A stretch of 64,000 nucleotides of DNA from Corynespora cassiicola (Eukaryota; Ascomycota; Dothideomycetes; Pleosporales; Corynesporascaceae). Location: assembly GCA_022059125.1 (NCBI GenBank), contig JAEUWY010000016.1, positions 558,001-622,000 of the forward strand, written 5' to 3'. The position numbers and the translations under genes were made by a program. Positions 35,138 to 64,000 of this stretch are shown piece after piece. The notes under the pieces were generated by a model that ran no database searches, was not told where the DNA came from, and saw nothing but the letters and a program-made list of their open reading frames with translations. The stretch's first letter is position 1. Each line of letters begins with the position of its first letter.

Positions 35138-35581
35138 TGTTAAGGCTGTGCTACAGGCTATAAGCGAGGCTAGAAAGCAAGTAGCCGCTTAGGTTAATTC
35201 TTAGAGATAAGTACTAGTAGAGTTACATAAGTAAAATAATATATAATATACTATACAGATCTCCGTGTTAGCGATAGAGCATAATAAGTTAATAGTTAAT
35301 TCTAAATAATAGATTTACTAATAAAGTAAATATAATTATAAAATATAATTATGCGAACTATATACTTGTGTAGTAACTGTGTTTACCTGTACTTTTTATA
35401 AGTATTTACTATTAGTACTTATAAGCGCTTACTTTGCTAAAGCGTAAGCTCTAAATTATATATTTTTTTTAGTTACGTAATATAGTACAGCAGTTCTTTT
35501 TTAGGTGTGTAATTATATATATAATTAAAACTGCGCTTTTAGTATTGCCTATCTAAGTTTTTCTAAAACTGTATTATAATA
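35138..35581 (-). repeat. 3' LTR of the subfamily B gypsy element
   Basis: This is one 444 bp LTR. It begins TGTTAAGGCTGTGCTACAGG as in the intact element and diverges from it right after the CTATATAC motif. Confidence 0.85.
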
Positions 35582-35929
35582 CTATTCTTTTTTTCTTAGA
35601 ATTTGTTTTTAAATTATATAACTAATTAGTAGTTTTGCTTATAAACGCCGTTGCCCCGCATTTTATAAGTATAACTAGTATATTATATTTTCTAACTTTT
35701 AAGCACGTTGTATTTGTTTTACGTCTGAAATCTATTACATAAATATTATTTTTTTTTTTTTATAATAAGTGTTTTGCTTTTAGTTAAGATTGCTTTATTA
35801 TATCTAATTCTCGTCTAAAGTGTGCTGAGTATACTAAACTTAGTTGTTTTTATATAAGCTTATTATAAAAGTTACTTAACTGTATTTATAATAAGTATTA
35901 AAAAAAAGTAAATAAAAATAAAAAGTTAT

Positions 35930-36210
35930 TAGCGCAGGTAATATTTTAGTTAATATAAAATAAAAAGATATTAAAACAGGCTAAGAAGCGTGCAAAGAAA
36001 AAAGCGCTCTATTTAGTATTAGAGATAGAAAAAAATAGCAAGTTAGACGCTGCTTAATCTATAGATTATTCTACTACTAATATTTTAGTTAGATTTTCGC
36101 CTGTAATATAGTCTATAATAAACTTTATTAATTCTGTTATTACTTTTTTTAATAATAGTTTAACAGTATTAAGCAATTTCTAAAATTAGTTTTTAGTTTC
36201 TATGTATTCT
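35930..36210 (+). pseudogene. Probable remnant of the antisense helical gene (subfamily B)
   Basis: A plus-strand frame around 35965 encodes a Lys/Ala-rich helical segment (AKKRAKKKALYL) between the LTR and the pol end, the same place as the antisense gene of the intact element. The cysteine cluster could not be read here, so this assignment is weaker than for the copies at 26473 and 63571. Confidence 0.45.
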
Positions 36211-41430: not shown

Positions 41431-41874
41431 TATTAAAGCTGTGTTACAGACTATAAGCAAGACTAGAGAATAAATAGCTGTTTAAGTTAATTTTTAAAGA
41501 TAAATACTAGTAGAGTTACGTAAGTAAAATAATGTGCGATATACTATACAGGTTTCCGTATTAGTAATAAAGCATAATAAATTAATAGTTAATTCTAAAT
41601 AATAGATTTACTAATAAAGTAAATATAATTATAAAGTATAATTATGTAAACTATATACTCGTGTGGTAACCGCGCTTACCTATACTTTTTATAAATATTT
41701 ACTATTAGTGCTTATAAGCGCTTACTTTACTAAAGCGTAAGCTTTAAATTATATATTTTTTTTAGTTACGTAATATAGCACAGCAGTTCTTTTTTAGGCG
41801 CGTAATTATATATATAATTAGAGCCGCGCTTTTAGTGTTGCCTGCCCGAGTCTTTTTAAAACTGTATTATAACA
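41431..41874 (-). repeat. 5' LTR of the subfamily B gypsy element
   Basis: This is the second 444 bp LTR, equal in length to the copy at 35138 and differing from it by C/T and G/A changes. Its first bases read TATTAAAGCTGTG, a RIP form of TGTTAAGGCTGTG. Confidence 0.85.
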
Positions 41875-44201: not shown

Positions 44202-46837
44202 TTATATTTTTAAACTTTTTTTTGCTGGTAACGGCTTAAAAATATTATTTCTTTATTTATTATAAAGAGAAGTATAACTAGATAGTATACGTATTAGACT
44301 AGGTCTGTTTTAAATTACTATATATATTTTTAACTTTTAGTAAAATTAAAATTTTTTAAATTTTTTAATAACTAAAGTTTTTAAGTTTAGAACTTCTACT
44401 TTTACGTAAGTTAGATAATTTTTAGAAAAAACGCGTTGTACGCTAAAGTAAAAACTAAATAACTATTAAAAACTTACTAAAATTAATTTTAACTATTAAT
44501 ATCTAGCTCTATATATCTGCTAAATATATTTTAAAAAAATATTATTTAAAAATTAAGTAGGCTGTAAGAACAGCTTTAACTTTTTAATAATAATCTAAAA
44601 TCTACTAGATTTTTATTCTAATTTAATAACATTAATTTCTACTTTATACTAATAAAAGTTAAAATTCTATAGTTATAAACTAAAATATTAAAACTTAAAA
44701 CTGCTGCTGCAGATTCTTTTTTCTACTAAAAAAAATAGTTTAAACTATTACTATTAACTTATATTTAATAACTATTTAAATTATTTTTAATTTTAGTTTA
44801 GCTAAAGTTATTTAAGTAAATTTTTAAAATTAAACTTTTTAATAACAGAAAAACTGTTACTTTTTTATAATAGCTAGCTTCTATCTAAAATTACTTTAAT
44901 ATTAATTAGAACTATTATTTTACTAAATAAGCTTATATAGTAGAAGTCTAGAAATATACGTTAGAACTAGCTTAAAAATATTTAGAGCTCTATTATTTAG
45001 CTAATAATTTTCCGGAACAGTTTCTTAATACAGAGAAAATACTTAACTTTCTAAAATTATATTTTATTTTAGAAAATAAAAAAGTAGAAAATTAAGTTAC
45101 TTTTTATTAATTGCAGATAGAATAAGAAAAACTTTTTTCTACTTTTAAAATTTAATTTCTATCTACTGCTATTAAAAGTAAAGTATAAAAAAAAAATAGT
45201 TTTTTTACTTATAGAAAAAGATTACCTTAGCCCTGCGAGTTCTAAACTTTAAATTTAAATTTCTATAAAATAACTTTTTTAATAATATAGTAAAATATTT
45301 CTTTACTTATAATATAGAGCGCTAAAATAATTTTATATTTACTATTAGCAGAAATAAAAAAAGTAACTACAGTTTTTTACTAAATGAAATTTTAGAAAAT
45401 TAGAAAATACCTAGTCTATCCGCAGCACTTATAAAAAAAAAAAAAACTACTTACTTACGCACTATTTAAATAAATTTATAAATACTATACTAACGCAAAA
45501 ACAGTAAGCTATTTAATCTAGTTCTAGCTATAAAAAAAAACTACTATTAGTATAGTAAGCTAAACTATTTTACGCGCGACTGTAATTCTTTTTAAATAAA
45601 CTAAATTACTATTAATAATAATTTATATAACTAATTTAAAAACGTAATTAACTTTAATAAACTAGATTTAATTTAACTAAAAAATAAAAATACTTAGAAA
45701 AATTTTCTGTTTTAAGTTACAGTAAGTATAATCTATTTAATATAGACTTATTAAACTTATTAGAAAGCTATTATTTCTAAATATTTTCTATTCTCTATTT
45801 TAACGGGCTTAAAATCTGTTTATATTTTTTTATTAATACTAGTATATAAAAATTTTTATTTATTAATACTTTTATTATAGTATTTTTAGCCTGCACTTTT
45901 TAAATACTTATCTAAAAACTACTATATAAAATTAAAATACGCGGCTTCTAAAATTTAATTAAATTTTTAGTTACTTATTATATCTGCTTTTATTTTCGCC
46001 TAAATAAACATATAATACTAAATTACTTTTTTATTATTTTTAACTTTAAATTCTAAAACTGTATTATTAGTCTAAAATAGATAAAAAAATTTAAACTTAA
46101 ACTAGATACAGAATATAACTGGATTATCTAGCCCTTTTAGTATCTACTTTTATATATATTTACTCTACCTATACTTTAATATTTATACTAATTATCTACT
46201 AGCTAAAGTGCAGAGCAAAATATTTTTTAAAAAAATGTTTTTTAAAAAACTAACTAAACTAAATACTATTAAAGCTTAGAAACTTATTTGTATTAACTTT
46301 AAAAACTAAAACTTTTTTAGCTTAAATATTTTTTTCTAACTAACTTTTAACTAAATTCTAAGTTTAGTTAAAGTTTTTAAATAGCTGCTATCTTAGCTAA
46401 TACTTTTTATTTTTAAATAAAATAACTTAAAAATAAATTTTTTATAATAACTATTTTTAAAATTAACTAACTAATTAAAAACTTTTTTTCTAAAATTTAG
46501 AATATTATAGTTCCGGCACTATCCCGACTTTTTTCTATATATTAAATATACTAAAATATATTTAACTCTAAAGCTGTACTCTATTTTCTGCTTTACTAAC
46601 TCTATAACTATAAAATTATTTTTACTAAATTTTTTCTAAACAGCTATAGTTTTTTGTATAAGTAGAACTTTAAAAAACTTAAAGCTACTTAAAAATTTAT
46701 AATAATCTAACTATAATACAGTTTTATTAAGCAGAGTTAAAGTTTTTTTATATTATTTATTCTGTGTGTTTGCAAAGCAAATAAAAAGCTTAAAATATAT
46801 ATTAACTATTATAAACTAAACGCTTTAACTAGAAAAA

Positions 46838-47207
46838 TGTTAAGGCTGTGCTACAGGCTATGAGCGAGGCTAGGGAGCAAGTAGCTGCTTGGGTTGATTC
46901 TCGGGGATAAGTACTGGTAGGGTCACGTGAGTGAAACGATGTGCGATATGCTGTACGGGTCTCCGTGTTGGCAGATAGAGCACGATAGGTTGATAGTCAA
47001 TTCCAAACGATAGATTTGCTAACAAGGTGAACACAATTGTAGAGTACAATTGTGTGGACTATATACATGTGCCTGAGGCTTCTGCTCAGTACTGCTCAGT
47101 TGCTCAGTACTGCTGAGCGGACTGATCAACTGAGCACGTCACGTGACCAGCCATGGCGGTGCGACCCTGTCGGCCCCGTCATTGGCCCACGTTTGTGGCT
47201 CATAACA
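46838..47207 (-). repeat. 3' LTR of the intact gypsy element
   Basis: This 370 bp LTR has TGTTAAGG...CATAACA ends. Read in the plus direction it also abuts the antisense gene, whose ATG is 41 bp beyond its end. On the U3 side it holds three GCTCAGT repeats, a CACGTCACGTGACC motif and an inverted CCAAT (ATTGG near 47182). Confidence 0.95.
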
Positions 47208-47220
47208 CTATCCCCCCTCT
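47208..47220 (-). promoter_or_regulatory. Polypurine tract for plus-strand DNA synthesis
   Basis: On the element's coding (minus) strand AGAGGGGGGATAG directly abuts the 3' LTR, the place and composition expected of a gypsy polypurine tract. Confidence 0.85.
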
Positions 47221-47248
47221 AGCCTAGCTCGGTCCTCTGAGCTAACAT

Positions 47249-47860
47249 ATGACGCGCGGGTTTCCCTCGTTGCTGCCCACTTTCGCAACGATGCCTAAAA
47301 CACCAACAGTCTCCAGTACCGTCCGCCGTCATCGCCTAGCTGATTTTGTCGAGGCCGTAGGAGAAGTCATGGTTCAAAAGTGTTCGACTTGCGTAAAGCA
47401 TAAACGAGTGTGTAAGGTGCATGTTCGTTCCGGAAAGTGCAGTGAGTGTCTGCATCGCGGGCAGCGGTGCAACATTCGCGTTACTCAGTCCGAGTTCCAG
47501 CGTCTTGCTAAGGAGAAAGAGAAATTGCGACAACAGATAAAGGAGTCGCGCGAAGCGCAGGATGCGGCTGTGAAAGCGCATGAAAAGGCCTTGGAGGACT
47601 TGCAGGTGGCGAGAGCCAAAGAAGAGCGGCTTCGTCAACAGATGGACTTGCTCGATCGTCGTGCGGAGGAGGCCATATCGGTGGAGGAACGAGACCTGGA
47701 GGAGCAAGAGCAGCGGGAACGCGAGGCGTTGTCCGAAGTTCTTACTTTCGACGGTCCTTCCGAGGGTCTTGCTCTTAACCTTTCTCCGAGCACTTGGAGC
47801 GCTATCGAGGGTTTTCCCGACAACTTCTGGGAAGTACCCGTGTCGTCCGCTGGTCCCTAA
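47249..47860 (+). CDS. Antisense Zn2Cys6-type and coiled-coil protein of the retrotransposon
   Basis: This 203 aa protein is encoded on the strand opposite to gag-pol, between the 3' LTR and the end of pol, which it overlaps tail-to-tail by 59 bp. Cysteines at 45, 48, 55, 64, 67 and 74 give C-x2-C-x6-C-x8-C-x2-C-x6-C, the spacing of the Gal4-type Zn(II)2Cys6 DNA-binding cluster, with basic residues in the first loop (VKHKRV). A long charged coiled coil follows at about 78-165, as in dimeric zinc-cluster factors, then a short acidic/aromatic tail. The ATG at 47249 or the second one at 47291 could be used. Transcription would have to start in or beside the LTR. Remnants with the same cysteine spacing occur in other copies in this window. 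Function is unknown; DNA binding is inferred. Confidence 0.8.
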
Positions 47861-50800
47861 GTGTTTGGTCGTGTACGATGTGTCGCCTTTCTTCGGGTAT
47901 GTTTTCTTTGATTACCCCTGTGTAGTAGTGGAGGTGATTTCGTCTTCGGCTTTCCTTGAGTAGTCGCTGACAGTTCTTCAGGTTTCGTTCTGGTTCCCAA
48001 GTGTTTTCCGAATCTGGGTATCCTTTCCATTTGACCAACCATTCCTGTGCGAAGTGGTTGTCGCGGAATTCGTCTCGTCCTATCTCGCGGTAGCCTACTA
48101 GCGCTTCTACTTCGAATTCGACTTCTTCTTCCGTCTCGTAATGGAAGTGTTCTTGGACTGGTGTTTCGGCGTCGGCAGGTTCCAATAGTGACACATGGAA
48201 CACTGGGTGTATTCTAGCATTGGCAGGGAGTTGGAGTTTATAGTTGACTGGTCCCTTTCGTTCTAGAATCAAAAATGGTCCGACCTTGACGTGATCCAAT
48301 TTCTTGCTTGGTCGTGTCGTTCGAAGATTTTTCGTGAGAAGATACACTTTATCCCCCCTCTTTAGCTGAGGTGCCATTTTTCGTTTCTGGTTGACATAAG
48401 AAATGGTCTTGCGTTGTGCTGTCTCGATATTCTTTCGTAATTGTTCGTGAAGTTCTCGTAATTCTCCCGATTTGTCCATTGCTTGACTTGCAACTGGCTT
48501 GATTCGTTCTTCCTTAATCCTTGGTAATAGGAGATTTGGGTGTGTCCCGTGTAATGCATAATAAGGAGATTGCTTCGTCGTTACTGATTCTCTGTTGTTG
48601 AATGCGAGTTGTGCCATGGGTAGTAGTGATACCCAATTATTTTGTTTTTGGTTGCTATACATCCGTAGGTATGTTTTCATGGTCTGGTTTGTTCTTTCTG
48701 TTTGACCGTCTGTCTGTGGATGGTATGCCGTTGATAATTTTCTTTTAATTCCGATGGCTGACATCAGTGTCGTCCAGTAGTTTGATGTGAAGAGTTTGTC
48801 TCTGTCGCTGATGATTGATTGAGGCAATCCGTGATACCTAACTACGCGATCCAGAATAACCTGTGCTAGTTCCGGCGCAGTGTAGTTGTCTCTAAATGGA
48901 ATCATTTCTGCGTATTTCGTGAATCTGTCCACAACCACTAGGATGGCATTGTAGGGTACTCTGGAAACCGGGTCGTGAGACGTTGGTAATCCGGTGACAA
49001 AGTCCATAGCAATGTCTGTCCATGGTTTGTCTGGTATTTCTACAGCTTGTAGTTCTCCATATTGAGCGTGTGTACTGTGCTTGTTCTTTTGACATGTTGT
49101 GCATTTCTTGATGAACTTCGCTACTTTGTCTTTCAATCCAGGGATGTCGTACGTTCGTTGTATCAGTTTGATCGTTTGTTCGACACCTGGGTGTCCGTGC
49201 AACGGATCTTCGTGATACTGCTGGATGATGGTTTGATGAAGTTCTTCTGGTACTTGTTGATGTACTGTCATGATAAGATTGATGCTGCGTGCTGGCCCTA
49301 AAGTGCCGTCTGGCGCTTGCTTGAGGATAGCAGCTTCGTTCGTTGACTTGGTTCCTGCGATGTCCGTCCTTCGACTCAGAGCATCTGCTCTTCCATTTTC
49401 TTTGCCTGGTGTGTAGACAATCTTGAATTTGTACTGTCCTAGTTCTTCACTCCATCTGGTATGTCGTCGGTCTAATGGTTTGGTTGTCGTGAATGTCATT
49501 AGATTCTTGTGGTCCGAGTATACCGTGAGTTCTGAACAGCTTTCTGCGTAGATTCTCCAATGCTTGAGAGAGTCTATGATGGCAAGTAATTCCTTGTCGT
49601 GAACATCGTAGTTTTCTTCAGCTCCGCTGAACTTTCTCGAATAGTAGGCAATCGGGTGCCATTTGCCTTCTTTTTCTTGACTGATGCATGCTCCCATTGC
49701 TAGGTCTGATGCGTCTGTTTCCATGCGTAAGGGTTTTCCACTGGTGAAAGATATGAGAACCGGTGGTGATATGCTTGCTTCTTTGAGTGTCTCAAAGGCT
49801 TGTTGTTGGTCTGTATCCCACTTAAATGGTACATCTTTTCTTGTTAATTTGGTGAGTGGTAGTGCCTTTTCTGAGTAGTGATCGATGAACTGCCTGTTGA
49901 AGTTGCAGAATCCTAAGAAGGATTGTATGTCCTTGACGTTCTTTGGCGTAGGCCAGTTCTTGACTACTTCAATTTTCTTTGGACTGATCTTGACTCCGTG
50001 TCTTCCCACAATGTGTCCTAAGAATTCAACTTCTTCTTTGTGGAATTCACATTTCTCTGGTTTGAGTCGTAGTCCTGCTTTTCCCAAACATTCCAGTACT
50101 GTTCGTACGTGCTGGACGTGTTCCTTGAGGTCCTTGGAAAAGACTAGGATGTCATCTAGGTATGCGATGACGAATATGTCTAGGTGTGCTCTCAACACGT
50201 TGTTGATGAGTGCCTGACATGTCGCAGGTGCGTTGGTAAGACCGAATGGCATTACAAGATATTCATAGTGCCCATACCGCGTCCGGAATGCCGTCTTCCA
50301 TTCTTCACCTTTCTTCATGCGTATCAAGTTGTACGCGCCTCGGAGATCTAAGGCTGTAAATATCTGTGCTCCAGATAGCCTATCTCTGAGCTCTTGAATG
50401 TTCGGTAGTGGATATCTGTTCTTGATCGTGATGTTGTTGAGTTTCCTAAAATCCACACATAACCGTAGGGATCCATCTTTCTTGGGAACAAAGATGATCG
50501 GGTATCCCGCCTCTGACGTTGATTCGCGTATGAATCCTTTCTTGAGGTTTTCATCGAGGTATGCTCGTAACGATACGAGTTCTTTTTCCGTTAGACTGTA
50601 GATGGGCTCGAAAGTCGGATGCTTTCCTTCCTGAAGGGCTATTTCGCAGTCCCAGGGCTGATGCTTAGGTAACGCTCTGTCGTCTACCTCTTCTCGAAAG
50701 AGTGGTTCCCATTTGCTGTACTCTTCGGGGATTACAGGAGTTGCGCGAGTTGTCTCCAAATCTCTCACTTCTTTGTCCGGTGGCTCCTTGTCGGATCTGG

Positions 50801-51329
50801 TGGAGTCGACCTTTCTTCTTGAAAGCGTCTTAGTCGATCCCTTGCTGCCTATGTTATTCAGCGTGATCTCATCTACCATCGAACGCTGCCGATGCGTAGG
50901 TCCCGATGCGATGGCGCACTCGCATCCTATGAACGAAAGCTTCTTTTTCGCCCAGTCGATATATGGGTTATGCTTTCTGAACCATGGAAGTCCTAAAATG
51001 ACGTCGTGGATGGCCGTGCCCATGATGTCGAAGGAGATCTCTTCCTGGTGTCCCTGGATGTCCATGATGGTCGTGGCTTCTTGATCCATCAATGCTTTTC
51101 CTGGCATCTTCCTTCCAGTTGCCGTGTGGAGGAAATAGGGTCGCTCGTGGGCATGCGTTCTTGCCTTACTACGCTTTACAGCCTGCTGTGAAAGGTAGTT
51201 GCGCTGAGCCCCTGTGTCTAATAATGCCTTCATCCAGTATCCATTAAGCTTGACAGGTAGCTTGACTAAGTTCTCTGAGTTGGTAGCGCACAATGCCTTG
51301 GGTCGATCCCAGGCGCTAAGTGCTGTCCT
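47802..51329 (-). CDS. pol: Pol polyprotein (protease, RT, RNase H, integrase, chromodomain), made by frameshift
   Basis: The frame is open over about 1175 codons and has no usable ATG at its start; it is reached from gag by a minus-one shift. Residues below count from the TTG at 51293. Protease has LLDTGAQ (D26). RT has YLDD at 378-381. RNase H has METDAS (about 525) and YSDHKN. Integrase has an HHCC finger ending C731-x2-C734 and a DD35E core at D764, D830 and E866. [13 protein letters not shown] module follows, then a chromodomain at about 1060-1115 ([17 protein letters not shown]). This order (integrase after RNase H, chromodomain last) defines Ty3/gypsy chromoviruses; the chromodomain usually directs insertion to particular chromatin. 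All catalytic residues are present. Confidence 0.95.
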
Positions 51330-53260
51330 AAAAAAGACTCGTTGCTGAATCCATACAAGCGTTTCTCATTCCAGTGACGTTCGCAATCATCGTGTAAGCA
51401 TGTTTGCCAGAGATCTTGCGTACATCTCCTGTTGACTAGCATGTTCGTTGCGAGTTCTTCAGCTTCGTTCATCCCGGGGAAATGTTGTGATTGTCGTTTG
51501 TCCCATAGGTGAGTGTCGCATACATGTGTCTCGCAGTCGAACCATTGATGTTTGCATTCGCGTGGTTTGGATGGAAACCAGTTTGCGGCCATCTTGTCCG
51601 AGTAGTGGATTTGACATTGGTCTTCTCGACAAGAGGTCCATGAGTAAGTTACGTGTTTTGGATTCCTTGGGTCTAGGTAGTATTGCAGTTCTTGCGTGTT
51701 TCGGCTTCGTAGAGGACTTGGAACCGTGTTTGGTTCGCTGTCAGGGTCTGGTAAAACTCCCAGTTTGATTCCTGAATCTGGTTGATTGACTCGTTCCCAT
51801 GCCTTGGAACTGCGTCGTTGTCGGCGTTCCTCTGGGTCTTGATTTTCTTTGTCTGAGTCATTGTGCCTCTTTGTCCGTTTGCGCGTTACAGGTGATTCTT
51901 CCCGCCATGCGGGCGTTCTTGTCGAATCTCTCCTGTGTTCCTTAAGAGCTTCGGCCAATTCTTGTATTTCTTCGAGGTCCTTGTTCATCCTGAATCGTGC
52001 GAGTTCGGGTGGCGTGCTGCCATCGCTGTTTCTTTCGAACTCGTAACTGGCGTCGCTTAGATAGTCTTCGTGATCGTGTGCTTCGCGAAAGGCTTCTTCT
52101 TCCTCGGGGCTAGGTCCTTCAAATTTGACTTCTTTAAGGATGCTCCTAGGCTCCGTTTGAGTGCCTTTGTCTTGATACTGAACACAATCGAAGAATCCCT
52201 CCGTTTCTCCATGTCGCAGTGGTTCGCTGTCGCAGATGAATCCCGTTTTCTGGAATCTGTCTACGACGACTTTCCATTCATCGTCTGCGTCGGATTCGTC
52301 ATCCGGAGTGGTTTGCAATACATTTAGCTGTCGAACGACCTTGTTCTTTGATCGACAGTCTCTTGCGATGTGGCCTGTCTTTCCACACGCGTAGCAAGTT
52401 ATAGCCTTGCCTTTAGGCTTGTCGTTTCTCTTTTTGTTACCTCCTCGTCCCGCTTCCTGGATATTACCGAGGACCATTGGTTCGTCACCATAGGTGTCAC
52501 GAGTGAGATGCGTTACCTTGCGTTCAACTCGTTTACCGGTGTTGGCGTTGTAGTACCCTTTGCCATAGCTTGGTTTGGTACGTTGTCGGTATCGTGGGTT
52601 TTGGTCCTGGCGTAATTCCATACGCAGTTCGTACAGTTTCTGATCGATGTCGATGGACTCATTTATAAGTTGTTCAAGCGTGTCGAGCTGAGCTCCAGAA
52701 CGCATGAGTTCTTCTTTGACGTTGGGTTTGAGTCCTTGGCGGTACATCGTCATAAGTGCCTTGTCATCCCATTCCGTGAGGATCGACAGTTGCTGAAATT
52801 CGTTGGCGTAGTCAGCAGCTGAAGCCCGTTGTTTGAGATGTTGGATGTCTCGTCCGGCAATTGTATCCTTGTTGGCGATTCCGAAGACTTGTTTGATCTT
52901 CTCCTTGAATTCATCGAAATCCTCCATCCATTCGTTGACGTCGTCGTTGGCTTCGCCGTCCTTGTACTTGATGAGAGCTGGTTTGATCCATTGAAGTGCT
53001 TTGCCTCTCATGTACGTGGCTGCGAACATGACGCGTTTCTTTTCCTTAACGTTTCCACCTTGGAAGTCGAAGAACAAGTCGAGCTGCAAGAGCCAGTCTT
53101 CGAGCTTGCTTCGTTCTCCATGGTAGAGGTCAGGTGTTGCTACTTTGATAGAATTGTTGTCTGCCGTGTTAGGTTGTACGATTGCACCAGTAGTGGCCTT
53201 AGCACCAACAGTGCTACTGGTTGGGGTTGAGGGTGCGCGTGATCCTGAAGTGGTACTCAT
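51266..53260 (-). CDS. gag: Gag with CCHC knuckle and a C-terminal Cys/His-repeat extension
   Basis: The protein is 664 aa and starts 18 bp inside the 5' LTR. Residues about 40-215 form a retrotransposon-gag capsid region ([32 protein letters not shown]). A classical zinc knuckle [14 protein letters not shown] lies at 289-302 (C289, C292, H297, C302). After it comes an unusually long tail of about 360 aa, acidic and then basic ([15 protein letters not shown]), with three repeats of C-x4-C-x2-H at C544/C549/H552, C576/C581/H584 and C621/C626/H629, each followed by an acidic residue, Lys and an aromatic. The slippery site for Pol lies at codons 643-644. It would form virus-like particles and bind element RNA. 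Confidence 0.93.
51329..51335 (-). promoter_or_regulatory. Minus-one ribosomal frameshift site U UUU UUA
   Basis: On the coding strand TTTTTTA is in the right phase with gag (TTT TTA are codons 643 and 644), and a minus-one slip enters the open pol frame with AGG. About 10 nt downstream TAGCGC can pair with GCGCTA, enclosing CTGGG paired with CCCAAG (one bulge), a candidate stimulatory structure. The heptamer is a classical slippery sequence. Confidence 0.85.
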
Positions 53261-53268
53261 CTTGAAGG

Positions 53269-53276
53269 GTGTTCAC
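53269..53276 (-). promoter_or_regulatory. Putative self-priming primer binding site
   Basis: On the coding strand GTGAACAC starts 2 nt after the 5' LTR. No tRNA-type TGG start is present. It is the exact complement of GTGTTCAC at 53468-53475 in the LTR, which lies where the RNA should begin. Confidence 0.55.
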
Positions 53277-53467
53277 AATGTTAAGGCTGTGCTACAGGCT
53301 ATGAGCGAGGCTAGGGAGCAAGTAGCTGCTTGGGTTGATTCTCGGGGATAAGTACTGGTAGGGTCACGTGAGTGAAACGATGTGCGATATGCTGTACGGG
53401 TCTCCGTGTTGGCAGATAGAGCACGATAGGTTGATAGTCAATTCCAAACGATAGATTTGCTAACAAG

Positions 53468-53475
53468 GTGAACAC
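53468..53475 (-). promoter_or_regulatory. Predicted RNA 5' end and self-primer
   Basis: GTGTTCAC on the coding strand begins about 31 nt from the TATATA at 53506-53501, the expected position of the transcription start. The same 8 bases pair with the putative primer site beside the LTR. Confidence 0.5.
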
Positions 53476-53500
53476 AATTGTAGAGTACAATTGTGTGGAC

Positions 53501-53506
53501 TATATA
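53501..53506 (-). promoter_or_regulatory. TATA box of the LTR promoter
   Basis: TATATA within GTATATAGTCC on the coding strand is the only clear TATA in the LTR. Sequence identity among LTR subfamilies ends at this motif. Confidence 0.6.
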
Positions 53507-56500
53507 CATGTGCCTGAGGCTTCTGCTCAGTACTGCTCAGTTGCTCAGTACTGCTGAGCGGACTGATCAACTGAGCACGTCACGTGACCAGCCATGGCGG
53601 TGCGACCCTGTCGGCCCCGTCATTGGCCCACGTTTGTGGCTCATAACAAAAAAATACTTATTTAATATTTAAAATAAATAAACTTTTAGTAAGATTTAGC
53701 AAAGCTAAAGTTTTTATAAAATTAGATATTTACGCTGTATTTAATAAAATCTAAATAAACTTTAATAGTAAAAAATATACTACTTTCTAAATACGATACA
53801 GAACGTATAAATATAAAGTTTTTTTATTTAGGTTATATAACGGATTAGCTACTTTCTAGCAATATATAAACAACGTTTTAATTAACTACTTTAATAACTT
53901 TTACATTACATATCTGGACAATATTTTTATTTACTTTAAAAATAAATAAATTTATATTTAGTATATTAAAGCTGTTTTAGAATAATTACGTTAAGCTAAA
54001 CTGTAAATAAATATAACTAAATTTAAATTTTATATAAAACGTATCTAATACTTAGAATATATTCTAATTAACTAAAAACTAAAAGTAAATTTAAAAAAAG
54101 TTAAAATTTTATAGAATTAGATTTAACCTACTACTGTTACAGAAGTAAAGTTTTTTTTTAGATTTACTAGCTTTTACTAATAATTTATACTAGAATATTT
54201 CTGTATTACTTTATTAATTAGTATACTTTAAAGCTCTGCTGTATTTTTTAAATAGACTTAAAAATATAACTAAATATTTAAAGCTTTAAAAAACTCTTTT
54301 TTTTCTATTCTAACTTTTTATTATTTTAATTTTAAACTATTTATAAAACTAAAAATTAATATATTTAATAGCGCTATTGCAGGCGTATAGTTTTAGCAAC
54401 ATACTAATAAAAATTAGTATTTATATACTTTTTACAGTAAAACTCTATTCAGTTTTAAACTTAACTAAAAAATATATAATAAAAAACTTTTTACTATTAT
54501 TACTGCTTTCTAAAAATAGCAAGCTAATTTTTTTTTTATAAAGTATTAGATTTAAATATATTCTAATTATAAGTTGCTGGAATACTTTATAACAACTAAA
54601 ATTCTAAATACTAGATAAGTAAAATAGGCAGAAAAACTAGCGCTTTTTAACTTTTAAATTAAATATATTTTAAATAAAAATAATACTAGAGCTAATATTT
54701 TTAGCTGTTACAAATAAAATATAAAATTTTTTTTAGCTATATAGCGAAATAACTGTTTTTACGTGCTAATCAGACTGTATTACTTTAATCTCTAAATTAA
54801 CGCTAAGTTAGCTTAGAAATATATTAGAGTTTAAACTAAGTGTGTAGCTTGTATATATATAATATTTTTAAAAAACTTAATAAGCTTTAACTTTTTTAAA
54901 CTTATTAATATCTTTTTAAAAAAAAATTAATTAAGCTTTATAAAGAAACGCGAAAACTTTTCTAACTAGTACTAAATATATAATAAACTTATATTATACT
55001 AATATTAACTATATATTTTTTAAAATTTTATATTTATTACACGCTTAATATAAGAGGCTTATAACTAAGTTTTTTTAGCACACTTCAGCGCTATAAAAAT
55101 CTACTAGCTATTAGCCTAAAAGTACTACTAAAAAGATATAGAAAACTTATATAAGTAATATATATAGAACTGCTTTGCCTGTTAATAAGTATATTTAAAA
55201 TAAATTTATTTTACTAAAAAAATCTATTTTTTCTCTATTCCGAACTGTTCTATATAATATCTCTGTATAAACTTTAAAAAATTCCCCCGTAATAAAGCTG
55301 GCTATAACTAAATTTTAGTAATTATTAATTAACTTTTTAAGTAAGCTGTATTAATTTTATATTATAAAAATACTAACGCACATAGCATAGCCTATTTATT
55401 TATTTAATAAATATACTAATTTAGATATACTTTAAAAATAATTATATTAGACCGAAAACTACAGTTTATTTCTAGTTTCTAGTTTAAATTCTATTATATT
55501 ATTAGCGTTAAAGTTAAGCTGTTTACTGTTTACTATAAAAAAACTAATAGCTAAACTAAAATTATAAACTAATATATTAACTAAAAACTAAAGCTATTTA
55601 TAAGCTATTATTAAAATAACTAAAGTAAATTTCTGCTATTAATAGATTGCGCTTAACTTACTTTTCTATATATAAGTTTAGAAATAACTTTATATTAAGT
55701 TTTATTTAGTTCTAAATTCTGTTAAAGTTAGTATTAGAAAAAACCTAAACCTTTTAAGTTTTAGAAAAAACTAAATTACTAAAACACTCTAGTACTTACT
55801 TTATAGATATATAAAGTATAGAAGCTTATAAAAAAATTTTTTAAAAAGACTTAAAAACAAATACGAGCTTAAGTTAACTTCTACTATTACTAAGTAGACT
55901 AAACTATTAAAAATTAAGTATATCTTAGTATAAAAAATCTGATATTTATAAAACTAAGCTGAAAGCTGTTTGAACAGTAAACAGATTTCTTTAAAATATT
56001 AGAAAAAGTAAGTTATTTATACTGCTTTAAACTATTTTCTAAATTAAAAATCTATAATATATTCGCACTAGATATTCTTTATAAAAACTTAAATAATTTA
56101 CTTTTAAAATAAAAAGCTCTAAAATCTACTAAAGTACTAATTAATAAAGTAGAAAAATAGAAAGTTAAGAATATTTTTGCTAGTAAATTTATACGCTTAT
56201 TACTAAAGTATAAAATAAACTAGATTAGATATAACCCGGATTCTATATAGTATAACGTATCTAATTTTATAAAAGCTCTATATAAGTTAAAAGCTTTTTA
56301 TAATAAGTACTTTAATAAGCTAGAACCTCTCCGGTCTTTAAACTAATAGCTTTAAATATAAAAATAGAAAATAGAAAATATAAATTATTTATAAAATAAT
56401 AGAGTAGAGTAAAATAGTTATTAGATTTTTTATTTAAAATTTATTTTAAGTTTAACTCTGAAACTTCTTAAAACTAACTACTAGTTTTTTTTATTTTTAT

Positions 56501-57486
56501 TAAAAATTAGATTATTATTACTATTAGATTTTTTTAACTTAGACTTATTTTTAAACTTTAGTAATATTTTATTTAACTTACCCGCCTGCTAAAACTACTT
56601 TACTAAAAAAAACTTAGTAGATTTAGCTATTTTTTTTATATTTACGCGAACTAAACTGCGTAAAAAAGCTATTTTTAAATTAGCTAGCTTTTAATTTATT
56701 TTTTTTATATTTTAGTAGATTATTTTTAAAGTTATATAAATAGCTAGTAATACTTTTTCTATTTATATACGTCCCGACTCTACTCTAGTTATTTAAACTA
56801 TAATTAAAACAGCTTTAGCCGCGATTTTTACTATAGTAGTTAAAATAAAGTTATTTAAATTTTTTTTTTAGTTACTTATAGTTTATATTAATACTTTATA
56901 CTCAGCAGCGCAGTACTTTAGAATTTAGAATAAAATATTAGCTAACTATTCTGAATACGCACTAAGTTAGATATATACTAGCTTATATAAACTTTTTTAA
57001 GCAGTATAGTACTCACATTTTTTATTTAAAGTTAACTTAAATTTAAAGTTAATTATATATTTTTTTACTAATATGTAATAGGCGCGTAAATATATTTTAC
57101 AGTAAACTACTAATAAAGTACTAAATAAAACTAAAATAGATATTATAAAGTAAATTAAAAAGCTAATTTAATAGTAAAAAGCTTTAGAAAAAGTTAGCAG
57201 AAATACTAAATTCAGAATAAACTACTTACAGAATATAATAATTAAAAAAAAAAAAGAAAAAAGAAAAAAATTTAAAAAACTAAATTTATAACTGTTGAAT
57301 AGTAGTTTTATAAAAGTATTTTACTAGTTACGCAAACGCGTAACGCTTTTTTCTATAAAACACTAAAAGTAAAAGTAAATAATAAAATAAAATACTCTGC
57401 TTTTAATAAAAACTATTTATATTTTTTTCTAAATAGGCTTATAAATTATATTAGATCGGGACGATCTGTCTACTAAAAAAAAGTAA

Positions 57487-57847
57487 TATAATAAATTTTA
57501 TTTATATAAAGTTTAAATATATTTACTTCTAAGTATCGCGCACGTGATTTAGAACTTTATATCTAATTTTTAACTTTTAATTTCTAATATAGCTCTAACT
57601 TAGCTCTAATTTTTTATTTTTTTATACTTTTCTATAATAACTAAGAAAAGAACTAGACTAAACTTAAAATAGGCGCTAGAAAGAAACTATAAAAAATTAT
57701 AATAGTTCTAGATAGTTCTGTAGTTTAGAAATATTTTTTTGTATAAAACCTATAGGTTCTAACTTATAATTGTTCTCTAGTTCTGTGAACCCTTATTTTA
57801 AGTAGTATCTGAGCCGTATCGGAGACAAGTCGCTCTGTGTCCTTACA
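57487..57847 (+). repeat. 3' LTR of the older gypsy element
   Basis: This 361 bp partner of 43841-44201 ends CTTACA. It keeps more G and C toward its right part, so mutation differs between the two LTRs. Confidence 0.8.
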
Positions 57848-57859
57848 GCTTATAGTTTA

Positions 57860-59563
57860 CGTTATATATAATATATATACATTACGCGCAGAATGTTATA
57901 AAGTAAATAAAATTTTATAAAATATTTAAGTACTATTAGTATAAGTATTATATTAAAAGTAACTGTAGTAGTTATACAGCTGTAAATAATTTTAATATTA
58001 TATATTATAAGTACGTTTTAGTTAATATTTATAAATTTTTTAAAAGTTTAATAGTCGCTTAAATTATTTATATAGATTTTATATATACTATAATACTACT
58101 GTTACTACTACTGCTACGCTTAAAACTAATACTATTATAATTATAACTAGTATTAAGCTTACGCATTACTAGCACTAATTTAATTTTAAACTTACTAACT
58201 ACTACTGCGTTACTGCTTATAATAGTATATTTTTAAAAATTACTACTTAAGTATTTACTATATTAGTATAATTTTTTAAATTAATTTTAGTTAAATAGTG
58301 TTATATTGTAAGTGCGCTTAAGCAGATTATTAGCTATTTAGTTTATATAGTAAGTTCGCGTTTATAATATATTTATAATATATATTAATATATTTATAAA
58401 GTAGTAGTACTAGTAGTAAACTAAATAAGTCTAACTCTAAGTTTAAAAATAACTTTAAAAAAAAAAGTAGAAATAGTCTGTCTAGCAAAAAAAAAAAAAA
58501 AAAAATAATAATAATTTATATTTTAGCGGGTGCGGCGCTAGTCTAATACTGCTTTTATATATAGTATTTATAAACTTTAGACTAGTAATTTTTTACTATG
58601 TTAATATACAGTTTTAGTACGATCTTTGTGCAGTTTATATATTATTTATTTTTTTATATATATAAAATTTTTAGTTCTGATTTATAATTACAGACTATAT
58701 TTTTTATATTTTTAAAGTCTAAAACTAAAGTCTATATATTTTAGAAATTATTATACTTTTTCTAGCAGAGTAAATATTATAGTTAACTTTTTTTTAAATG
58801 TTTTTAAAAAAATTTTTTTACTTTCTAAACTTTTTCTCTTTCTAGTATAATATTAGAAAAGTATATATTATTTTCTTTTTTTTTAGTTTTAGTTTTTATC
58901 GCTCTAGTAAAAAAATATAAAATATATTATAAATATAATATAAGAGTAGTAGAAGTAAATGGTATACCTGCGATCTAACTGCGCCTTAAACTCTAAATAA
59001 ACTAATAAATTTACTAGTAAGCTTTTTACTTAGTTATTATACTAGATTATATATTTAGTACTAAGCAGTACTTAATCTTCTAAGCAGAAAATCTTATATT
59101 TATATTTTTAGTTATAGTACTAGTATTAATATTTTTATATTTTTTCTAAGTACTCTGTAATTACTGTTTTTACGCTGTATATATACTTAACTTTATTAAT
59201 TATATTTAGTACTTTTTTTTTAGTCTGTTATTTTTAAAAAGCTTAATAAGTAAAAAGTTTTTACTATAAACTGCGTAAAAAAGCGTAGTTTTCGTAAATT
59301 TATATACTAAATTATTATAAGTAAATTATACTATTAGTAAAAGTTATACTTAATCGCTTTAAAATAATAAAGTAAATATTTAAAAATATTGTTCTAGCGT
59401 CTAGTTCTAGTGTTTAGTTTATTTATTTATTTATAAATAGAAAGCGGTACTTAACCTACGCTTTATTTATAGTTAGTAGTATATTTTTATTTAAAACTTA
59501 AAAGTAAAAATAGCTTTTCTATCTAATATAATATCTTTCTATATTTTAAACTTTAATAACGTA
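57860..59563. other. Unresolved RIP-mutated sequence
   Basis: This is AT-rich sequence with A-runs (about 58491-58503). I found no element boundaries or domains that I can support. Confidence 0.4.
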
Positions 59564-61398
59564 ATTTATAAGCGAGTCGCGTATATAAGCGAGTCGCGCA
59601 TCTCTAAATACTTTAATATATATATAACTTATATTTATAATACTATAACTAAAAAATTCTTAATCAGCCTATAAAAAAGCCTTAGTAATTTTTACTTTTT
59701 TAGCTATTAAAAATTACTTAATTTAAAACGTACAGCGCGCTACTACTACTTATAATATTTTAAAAATTATAGTTTATAATTAATACGCTAAACGACTTAT
59801 AAAATACAATTACTAATTTAATTTAAAACAGCTAACTAAGCTTAAAAAGAAAGTTATTATTACTTATATTTTTAAGCTAGATTTATAAAAATTTGCACCT
59901 ATATTAAGTACTGTATATAATATAGCTAATTAATTACTTACTGCGCAAGAGGCGGGCTATATTAATATTAACTAGCTTAGTAACTTTATTAAGCGTTAGC
60001 TAAACTTTTAAGTTTAATTAATCTATTAGTAAAATTACTAGCGCGTTTTTTACAAAAATTTTAAAATTATTAGTTTTTAGTTTAAATTACTATATTATAT
60101 AAAAAAAAAGTATAGTATTATTAATAAAGATATGTATAACTTTAACGAAACAGACTTTATAATAAAAATAATTTTAGCTTAATTAGTAGTTATAGTTTTA
60201 AAAAAATAGAATTAATTTAAAAATACTTAGCTAAGTAATTATAAGTAAATTATAGTAATTTAGAGAATTAACGCTTGCAGCTAAGTAAAATTTTTTTTAT
60301 TATTTTCGCGGGTAAATACTACTTTTCTATATAATATAAAAGTAATAATATTTTATTTAGCTAGTATATATTACTTAGCGAAAGAGACTAAATAATAAAT
60401 TAGCTAAAAGTATATTAGCTAAAATATTTTAACATTTATACGCAGAGCCGTATAGTAAAAATATACTAACTACTTATTATTAATAATTATAAAAGCTATA
60501 ACTTTTTAGTTTTTTAGAACTTCTGTAAAATAAGTAAAATTATTACTTTCTATATATTTTTATATTTATTATATTTTTTTTAGTTTTTTAATATAAAATA
60601 TTTTTCGCTTTTAAAACGGGCGTATAGTAATAAAATTTTTAGCTTAGTACGTAATTATATTAACTATATTAATAAAACTACTTTTCTACTAGCTTTTAAA
60701 AAAGCTTTTAAATAATTTTTTATAAAAGCTAATATACGCGCGAGCTTTTAAAAAGCAAAAATAGTTTTATATAATTTAAAAGTAGTACTATTAAAGCTTA
60801 ATATAAAACTACGTATATTTACGCTAACTTTTTTTAAAACTATTTAATAAAAAGTTAGAATACTAAGTAACGCGTATAAGCTAAAAGCTTAATTAACGTT
60901 AATTCGTAATAAAGTAAAAAAGTATAAAAATTTATTACCTGCTTCTATTATTACAGCTATTAATTAGCTTAAAAAAAAACTGCAGTAATACTTTATACAG
61001 CTGTATTATTAAAAATTAAAATAAAAGTTTTAAAAAAGCTAATAAGGCCGCTACGCAGCGTATAAAGTAAAAAAAAAAAAATTTAGTATAAAAGAATTTT
61101 AATAAAAACTAAAAAAACTAAAATTATCGCTTAAAAAAACGTTAAAAAATAATTAAATAAAAAAAAGTGTAAAAAAGTAGTTTATTTTAGTAGCAGCTAG
61201 TAGTTAAAAATACGCTGCACGCGCTGCAGAAAGTAAAAATATAATTTTTATATATATAAAATAACAGTATAACTACTATAGTTACTTTTTATATTAAGTT
61301 ATTATAATATTTTTTTAAAGTAGTTAAGTATATAGTTGCGCGCGTACTAAGTACTTAGAAATATATAACTTATTTATATACGCGACTCGCTTATAGAT
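59564..61398 (+). mobile_element. pogo/Fot1-like DNA transposon, RIP-mutated (copy 4)
   Basis: The element is 1835 bp with TA on both sides and TIRs reading ATTTATAAGCGAGTCGCGTA at the left and its RIP-variant inverted copy at the right. It is colinear with the copy at 42005. The transposase frame keeps DMYNFNETDF near 60129, with the catalytic Glu preserved but Asp to Asn and Gly to Asp changes. It has many stops. Confidence 0.82.
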
Positions 61399-61400
61399 TA

Positions 61401-62975
61401 CGTTATAATATTTATAAAGTAAGCTTCCGCGAACTATTTTACGTTCTATATTTTTAAAGTTAGTATATAAAAAGCTATTTTTAAAAAGCAGTATATTATT
61501 ATAAAAATTATATTAAACGTGTTTTTTAAAAAATTCTTTACTAAAAATAAGCTAGTAATAAAGTTTAGTATTATTTTTTTAAAAATATTTTTAGATACTA
61601 GCAGTAGTAATAGCTTTTTATATTTACTATATTTTAAAGTTTTGCTTTTTTAGTATACAGCGTAAGTTCTTATATAATTTTTAAATATTTTTACTAATAA
61701 AAAGCTAATAATAGATTTTTTTAATTAGCTTTAGCGTTCTACGTGCGTTAAAGTAGCCTGCTATATATATATTATAGTTTCAAAATAAAATCTTTTATCT
61801 AATAGCTAGTTTATTTAGAATATATACTCTACTATTATATTTTAAAACTTTTTTTTTATTTAAGTGTTAAACGTGCGCTTTACTGCGTTTTTAAATACTA
61901 TTTTTACTATTTAAATTTATAATTTACTTTTAGGTAAAAATATTTTTTTACTACAGCTAATATAAAGTTTAAATAAATAATTAAAATTTTATTTTTGTAG
62001 ATTTACTGCTAACTAGTATTTTAGCTAATAAATATAGTACGTATAGTATATATTTTATAGTATTAGTAGTAGAAATCTAACTAGTTCTGCAAACAGAAAT
62101 AATATATATTTTATATATATTTAATAAGCTGTGCTTATTCGCAGATCTTCTTACTCTACTAACTATATTTTTTACTAATAATTTATTTTATAAAGTAGAT
62201 AATAATTAAATTAGTAGCAGATTTTTTTATATATAATCTGTTTTTTATAAAAAGCTGTCTGTAAAATTTATTTTTTCTATATAATATTTTACTTTAAAAT
62301 TAAATACTATTAAATATATTATCTATTTTATTTACTGCAGATTAAGTTTTTATACTATATATATACTACGCAGATTATTATAATTACTTAGTATTTATAT
62401 AGTATACTAAATATTTTTAAAGTAGTATTACTACTATTTAAAGCTGTATATAATAGCTAAAAACTTTAGATTATAAACTTTATAGTTTAGCTCTACAGTT
62501 TATAATTTTTTTAATATAAAAATAACTAAATACTATTTATAATTTTTAAATAGTTAAAAAAAAATATTTAATATAGTAAAAGTTAACGCGTCTGTCTCTA
62601 CGCAAATTAAATAAATAAAATTATAATAGTATAAAATAAACGTACTTAAAAAATAAGTTTTTAGCTTTATAAAAAAATTATTTATAGCTTTATTTTAGTA
62701 AAAGTTTTAGTTTTTTTTAAGTAAGTCTATAAAAAAAATAGTTTTTTTTATATATTTTTTAATAAAGCGTGGGTAAAAGTTAGCAAATTTTAAAAAGAAT
62801 TATAGTTTTTTAATATTAGTTAGCTGCAGCTATTAGATAATAGTTTTTATTTAAGTTAGATTAGCGCACATACTTTGTATATTTATAATAAATTTAAAAA
62901 AATATATTTTATTTAATATAAATATATATTTCTGTAAGTTAATAAATAGTTTTATTTTTTATAGTAATTTAAGTA
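61401..62975 (-). mobile_element. Fragment of another RIP-mutated gypsy element
   Basis: On the minus strand an RNase H motif VETDA is readable near 62585-62605, followed by decayed RT-RNase H connection sequence. The fragment is cut by the LTR at 62976, and no LTR of its own was found. Confidence 0.55.
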
Positions 62976-63449
62976 TGTTAAGGCTGTGCTACAGGCTATA
63001 AGCGAGGCTAGAAAGCAAGTAGCTGCTTAAGTTAATTCTTAGAAATAAATACTAATAGAGTTACGTAAGTAAAATAATGTGCGATATACTATACAGGTCT
63101 CTATATTAGTAATAGAGTATAATAGATTAATAGTTAATTCTAAATAATAAATTTACTAATAAAGTAAATATAATTATAAAATATAATTATACGAACTATA
63201 TATATATTAAATTCTATAAAATTCTATAGTTCTATAAAACTATTTTTATAAAATTATAAAACTTATAAAACACTAAGTTACGAGTTCTATAAATTCTATA
63301 CTAAGCTATTTTTAGTATTAATATTTTTATAAAACTGTTATATAACTTATCTTAGCTTAGTAAAATAATAAGTACTTACTATTAGTACTTATTATTAGCT
63401 ATTTTTTAAAAGCGTTGCCTACACCGCCTACTTTTTTAAATTTATAATA
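62976..63449 (-). repeat. 3' LTR of a second subfamily C gypsy copy
   Basis: The LTR is 474 bp and nearly matches 25877-26351 but is less mutated. It starts TGTTAAGGCTGTGCTACAGG. Confidence 0.78.
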
Positions 63450-64000
63450 CTACTTTTTTTTTTTTAGTTTAATATTTTTATAGGCTAATTTAATATCGTC
63501 GCGCAGCACTGTTTATTATTATATTTATAAAAATTATATTAATATTTAAAGTATTATTATAATAGTTGCTTGCAAACGTTGCGTAAAAAATAATTTAACT
63601 TATAAACTATTATTACTAAGTAAAAAATATAGAAATTATAAGCACGCGGGCTGTTAGTTATATATACTAATTAATATTCTGCTTTCTAACTTTTTTAAAA
63701 TTAACTCTAAAATAAATAAGCTAAAAAAAAAGAAAAAAATAACTAAAACTATTTAAAAAAAAAAAATTTAGCTAAAACTATTTTAGCGCGAATACGCGAT
63801 ATATATTTTAAACTAAAATATTTATAAAAATAAAAAAGTTTTTTTAAAAAAAAAGTAAAAGTTATTTAACGCAGATTTAAAAGCTATAAAAAAACTAAAG
63901 CAGCTAAAAGCGCTAGAAATACTAAACTAAAAAATAGCTTTAATAAATTTTAAAATTTCTGCTAGCGCTGTAGCCGTAAACTAATTTATTTTTTAATTTT
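63450..64000 (-). mobile_element. Interior of a subfamily C gypsy copy, cut by the window end
   Basis: The sequence is colinear with 26352-26930. The element continues beyond 64000, where its pol should lie. Confidence 0.7.
63571..64000 (+). pseudogene. Remnant of the antisense Zn2Cys6/coiled-coil gene (second subfamily C copy)
   Basis: In the plus-strand frame from 63571 the first two cysteines remain (TGC at 63571 and 63580, giving C-x2-C), followed by Tyr codons at 63601, 63628 and 63637. This reproduces C-x2-C-x6-C-x8-C-x2-C if Tyr replaced Cys by G to A mutation. A Lys/Ala/Leu-rich helical region follows, with stops. The copy is truncated by the window end. Confidence 0.72.

Follow-up and report, generated by a model that had tools for sequence, protein, structure and literature searches.

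An intact Ty3/Gypsy long terminal repeat (LTR) retrotransposon in a 64,000-nucleotide stretch of contig JAEUWY010000016.1 of the fungus Corynespora cassiicola (positions 558,001 to 622,000; the whole stretch is the window, and coordinates below count from its first letter) carries, on the strand opposite to gag-pol, an antisense open reading frame (aORF), which sequence comparison identifies as a conserved protein-coding gene that goes with this clade of elements and not a chance open frame. The reading that we favor, with a rough probability of 0.52, is that the element thereby encodes its own antisense DNA-binding regulator of its LTR, which would bind arrays of GCTCA half-sites. The established part of this proposal comprises the gene's conservation, its unvarying location among the scored copies, the fold prediction, and the arrays together with their position; we infer expression of aORF, zinc and DNA binding, dimerization, the role of the arrays as its sites, and feedback.

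The aORF (47249..47860, forward strand, from the list of open reading frames and the alignment) encodes 203 amino acids, is intact, and takes up the interval from pol to the 3' LTR. The sequence-only reading had described the frame and its cysteine pattern correctly, and its placement between the end of pol and the 3' LTR needs only the refinement that the two frames meet tail to tail, the last 59 nt of aORF (47802-47860) also belonging to the 3' end of pol. Being antisense to gag-pol, located between pol and the 3' LTR, and present in many copies, it belongs with the genes termed aORF-3R. Most aligned relatives begin at the equivalent of Met15 (47291), a codon with A at -3, and therefore a 189-residue protein is more likely than one of 203. 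The alignment, the structural model and a six-frame scan all bring out a six-cysteine cluster at residues 45-74 (47381..47470), C45-x2-C48-x6-C55-x8-C64-x2-C67-x6-C74, that is, C-x2-C-x6-C-x8-C-x2-C-x6-C; in the 127,996 residues of the six-frame translation of the window, aORF is the single match to the Zn2Cys6-type spacing. This is followed in the AlphaFold model by a long charged helix of 85 residues (80-164; 47486..47740), a putative dimerization helix whose block has a predicted local distance difference test score of 89-98. The long coiled coil of the sequence-only reading thus survives as a predicted helix, whereas the heptad periodicity of the single sequence does not exceed that of shuffles (110 of 500 reach the same value); a coiled-coil dimer is accordingly given here as putative. 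The C-terminus bears a conserved acidic/aromatic motif (approximately LSPSTW..EG.P..FWE; 47768..47836), detected by alignment and profile comparison, for which we suggest a regulatory role below.

A protein search with aORF recovered 163 relatives at E<=0.01 and a profile search, which scored 8,000 candidates, recovered 271; the best 120 of each were listed, mostly metagenome proteins, with Sporormia, Cercospora and Hortaea among the named sources. The six-cysteine spacing is kept in 135 of the 142 sequences fetched for this set (lineage 1), one of which, P0083, is the window's own sequence or a near-identical fragment. Across 32 aligned lineage-1 proteins no variation occurs at five of the cysteines, and the sixth, C48, is conserved in more than 90%. 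A second lineage emerged from four stop-bearing pol relatives in the same genome (L087-L090), whose R/U5 portions of the LTR (83-93%) and ends of pol can be aligned with the window element, unlike their U3 and aORF regions. The first impression, that these are elements with a differing 3' end and no aORF, was abandoned when translation revealed a differing antisense relic: L087, L089 and L090 show KCSEC-like cysteines, and in L088 the relic is degenerate. Searching with the L087 relic yielded 51 lineage-2 proteins, intact or partial, including an Exserohilum record, of which 38 keep the six-cysteine spacing. All six cysteines are invariant in 23 aligned members (C-x2-C-x6-C-x(8-12)-C-x2-C-x6-C) and are followed by a helix-like stretch and, at the C-terminus, an SP..W motif. 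Comparison of the two lineage profiles gave a probability of 97.5 (E 7.1e-12) over an alignment that starts in the N-terminal basic helix and ends at the SPxxW motif. In the alignments of the 32 and of the 23 proteins, columns average about 50% identity, and the cysteines are invariant or nearly so. Searches of viral_contigs and genome_contigs for DNA of other genomes with intact relatives found none. Within the window, a heavily AT-mutated lineage-2 antisense relic (22% GC) lies at 35758-36144 on the forward strand, with a half-site palindrome upstream of it at 35422 and a similar palindrome at 41715.

The association of the gene with its element was assessed over the best 40 of 547 candidate pols, a set from which the more distant pols of the genome are excluded. 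These comprise 19 intact copies and 21 with stops, the latter divided by coordinates into 5 lineage-1 and 16 lineage-2 relics, and one or the other antisense frame occupies the same place, on the opposite strand at the 3' end of pol, in 40/40. Homologous elements lacking the frame, which the sequence-only reading had named as evidence that would count against it, were thus looked for in this genome and not found among the scored pols. In all 20 of the 20 lineage-1 relics the alignment runs through both the LTR and the start of aORF. The window element shares R/U5 with 18 of 20 lineage-2 loci at 79-93%, the other two being unmatched in the stretch fetched. The U3 and the aORF each fall into the same two groups, a pattern that fits linkage of the two as a U3-plus-regulator cassette.

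The candidate binding sites are five GCTCA/TGAGC half-sites arrayed in U3 (47084..47135, beginning at 47084, 47094, 47102, 47114 and 47131), directly upstream of a TATATA that may be the sense promoter (47060..47065, reverse strand; 5' LTR copy 53501-53506). A matching array stands in the 5' LTR (53525..53576), and that of the 3' LTR precedes the start of aORF by 110-165 bp. Two further half-sites occur at the LTR edge (47198-47202) and just upstream of the aORF ATG (47238-47242). The U3 of the window LTR holds 6 half-sites in 133 nt against 0.65 expected, a count reached by 0 of 1000 surrogates. The lineage-2 U3s, which in their RIP-mutated state (repeat-induced point mutation) were matched with GCTYA/TRAGC, cannot be aligned to the window U3, yet display the same half-site in other regular geometries. 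Those of type 302 have inverted pairs with an N4 spacer (five in L111 and L118, three in L125, two in L122 and L126, one in L129), and every copy except L129 beats 1000 of 1000 surrogates. Each of the 12 copies of types 315 and 339 contains one, two or three pairs with an N13 spacer; the 8 with two or three pairs again beat 1000 of 1000 surrogates, and the 4 with a single pair are reached by 3 to 6 of 1000. In L114 and L130 the everted site repeats every 23 bp. Adjoining the window array, at about 47139-47148 and mirrored in the 5' LTR, is a TCACGTGA-type E-box, and an ACGTRA-like sequence occurs at a similar place in lineage-2 U3s.

Under the favored reading, the six cysteines would fold into a Zn2Cys6-like two-zinc cluster, and the protein would probably dimerize via the helix after the cluster and bind the candidate GCTCA half-sites just upstream of the TATA box. 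The array in the 5' LTR would serve control of genomic RNA transcription, and that in the 3' LTR, upstream of the antisense gene, would allow the protein to control its own gene through feedback. The conserved acidic/aromatic C-terminus leads us to lean toward an activator over a repressor. The proteins of the lineages would be diverged, and their versions of the one half-site differently spaced; known Zn2Cys6 dimers likewise differ by the spacing of one common half-site. A bolder form of this proposal, which we hold only tentatively and at somewhat below even odds, is that of private promoter codes, wherein each lineage's zinc-cluster regulator reads the geometry of its own U3 in a feedback circuit with immunity-like specificity. 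Lineages would then split when the U3-plus-regulator cassette alters its geometry (direct or mixed; inverted N4; everted with a 23-bp period), and copies would respond only to the protein of their own lineage.

The likeness to fungal Zn2Cys6 factors is one of cysteine spacing and, tentatively, of predicted structure. The protein fits the PF00172 spacing, C-x2-C-x6-C-x5-12-C-x2-C-x6-8-C, and with LAC9, HAP1, Leu3, PPR1, Pho7 and Gal4 it shares cysteine spacing, the order of cluster and helix, and, tentatively, the predicted fold; its AlphaFold model superposes on LAC9, HAP1, Leu3, PPR1 and Pho7 with low Z. Relatives from Sporormia, Cercospora and Exserohilum carry the UniRef label Zn(2)-C6 fungal-type, and Zn2Cys6 factors recognize half-site arrays in differing geometries, as are found in the aORF elements. 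The protein differs from these factors in its transposon-encoded origin, in its length of about 190-200 residues, and in the basic residues of the first half of the cluster, which lie outside the canonical register in lineage 1 and are missing from lineage 2.

Several results weigh against a DNA-reading regulator. The window protein has no match to Pfam PF00172 at E<=1, the check that the sequence-only reading had itself proposed, and relatives match weakly (1 of the 32 aligned for lineage 1, E 0.06; 2 of the 23 for lineage 2, best 0.031). Its Zn2Cys6 profile score of 16.5 compares with a median of 15.0 and a maximum of 24.4 for 60 cysteine-preserving controls, so that similarity at the level of sequence profiles is no more than the cysteines alone yield. 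A search of the PDB by sequence returned no Zn2Cys6 match. Plain membership in PF00172, supported by neither the curated model nor the profile comparison, was dropped. As to the arrays, the plain half-site count in type 315 is only weakly enriched, same-type copies are related, and the spacings were noticed before they were tested; internal repetition of five or three units within one U3 is hence a stronger argument than counts of copies. The linkage of U3 with aORF is also weakened by the fact that neighbors move together anyway. Of the self-encoded DNA-binding regulator proposed by the sequence-only reading, then, a conserved gene, a model that superposes on Zn2Cys6 factors and a candidate LTR array stand, and the family assignment by PF00172 does not.

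The nearest competing explanation is that aORF is a real zinc-cluster/helix protein acting elsewhere in the life cycle, and that a transcription factor of the host uses the GCTCA arrays. Such a protein could chaperone nucleic acids, take part in nuclear import or in the pre-integration complex, or inhibit assembly for copy control, as Ty1 p22 does. The lack of sequence proof for a DNA-reading Zn2Cys6 domain speaks for this explanation, a long charged helix would suit assembly or a scaffold, and retroviral-style accessory roles have been proposed, in the sections concerned with them, for plant antisense genes (PMC7264820). We nevertheless consider it unlikely, though it deserves serious weight, in that it predicts neither a fold match to DNA-binding domains nor lineage-specific regular half-site geometry beside the TATA box. 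That the antisense RNA is the working product, with tail-to-tail or antisense transcription giving rise to double-stranded RNA and small RNAs that limit the element, would agree with a frame wholly antisense to the genomic RNA and with its 59-nt overlap with pol, and double-stranded RNA is discussed for such genes in part of a review (PMC7264820). This is improbable, since an RNA function needs neither near-invariant cysteines amid such divergence nor two lineages with common protein features and no alignable DNA.

A slightly poorer prospect still is a captured host gene traveling as a passenger in one family with no role for the element. Zn2Cys6 genes are indeed abundant in fungi, with 150 scored matches from 342 candidates in this genome, but none of these 150 host matches is an aORF copy, the gene accompanies all the scored pols of two old lineages, and it also occurs in Sporormia, Cercospora, Hortaea and Exserohilum records. 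Coding DNA rich in GC often contains antisense frames, and others of 106-133 residues do lie inside gag and pol of this very element; an accidental frame opposite pol or the leader is nonetheless scarcely credible and is refuted by hundreds of full-length homologues with fixed cysteine spacing, the overlap with pol being only 59 nt.

A gene at the same place in Boty, brtn, is reportedly the subject of Zhao et al. 2011 (Virology 417:248). In the passages of later papers that cite it, brtn is an additional antisense gene of Boty-like retrotransposons of Botrytis cinerea that, like aORF, sits between pol and the 3' LTR, antisense to a chromodomain Ty3/Gypsy gag-pol (PMC4227169, PMC8365987, PMC7264820, PMC5987419). 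Those passages mention neither a zinc cluster nor LTR sites, and the two genes are likened by place and orientation, not by sequence; BRTN was not recognized among the aORF and lineage-2 matches listed, whose names are partly shown. A Monilinia transcript is described, in a passage of one of these papers, as resembling a truncated Pol and BRTN (PMC5987419), and transcripts from such a region therefore appear to exist in a related setting. Plant aORF-3R genes (Grande gene23, RIRE2, Retand, PvRetro13 ORF2) agree with aORF in place and orientation; according to the relevant parts of a 2020 review, some products are nuclear, one has an SMC-type domain, and clear database similarities were described for no aORF-3R protein (PMC7264820). 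Here, unlike in the plant elements, a predicted fold and candidate sites can be named. In crapaud, a Ty3-like element of Podospora, the subfamilies have distinct U3 sequences, the 5' half of the LTR, and share the rest, a pattern for which the authors of that work proposed promoter selection or template-switch recombination (PMC10787394) and which resembles the present case. The description of crapaud, in its pertinent sections, gives two open reading frames and no antisense gene (PMC10787394), whereas here U3 types track aORF types. The earlier statement that LTR retrotransposons are not generally known to carry such a factor must accordingly be narrowed: antisense genes at this place are already known, from brtn and from plants, while a zinc cluster in such a gene, or GCTCA arrays, were not found in searches of the open-license PMC literature, to which subscription papers, Zhao 2011 included, are external.

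The element as a whole (46838..53648, reverse strand) spans 6,811 bp and is delimited by LTRs of 370 bp at 53279..53648 (5') and 46838..47207 (3', upstream of the antisense gene), identical as the sequence-only reading had stated, and by the target-site duplication AAAAA (46833..46837 and 53649-53653). Gag (51266..53260, reverse strand) is Ty3 capsid-like with a CCHC zinc knuckle, and pol (47802..51293, reverse strand) encodes protease, reverse transcriptase, RNase H, integrase, SH3 and chromodomain. Its retropepsin, reverse transcriptase, RNase H, integrase H2C2, Tf2-type SH3 and chromo domains exceed the Pfam cut-offs, and rve falls just short (31.9 vs 32.6 bits). The order protease-reverse transcriptase-RNase H-integrase-chromodomain, the LTRs and the 5-bp duplication place it among Ty3/Gypsy chromoviruses. 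The polypurine tract is AGAGGGGGGATAG (47208..47220, reverse strand), and a possible Tf1-like self-primer site consists of 8 nt at 53269..53276 (reverse strand), within the first 10 nt past the 5' LTR, whose complement stands in the LTR 31 nt past the TATA.

The genome (44.35 Mb in 23 contigs) contains AT-rich blocks of 14-21% GC, and one such block in the window (22000-46000 and 54000-64000) surrounds the intact element of 38-48% GC. RIP-like mutation is strong in this block, and the intact copies have escaped it so far. Matches to aORF number 75, namely 19 perfect copies and many riddled with stops, and the LTR search likewise found 19 pairs of 100% LTRs. The 19 copies have no mismatch over the 2,109 nt that begin with aORF and over 411 nt of LTR/leader, the two stretches to which the comparison was confined, with gag DNA outside it; the element is recently active and the copies represent a recent burst. 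Copy identity is therefore uninformative on selection, and RIP-mutated copies are unsuited to selection tests because their changes are not coding-driven. Perfect 5-bp target-site duplications flank 17 of the 19. The other two, C8:146 and C6:247039-253851, each have one flank in common with another copy (C4:847472, C7:33714), which suggests exchange between copies or, for the contig-end copy on C8, an effect of assembly.

Antisense genes beside the 3' LTR have been known for years in plants and fungi without a function, and the aORF family now gains a predicted fold and candidate sites. If our reading is true, an element of this kind carries its own transcription regulator, which would explain the origin of U3 subfamilies and the bursts of single lineages, and the role of an aORF-3R gene would become directly testable in vitro.
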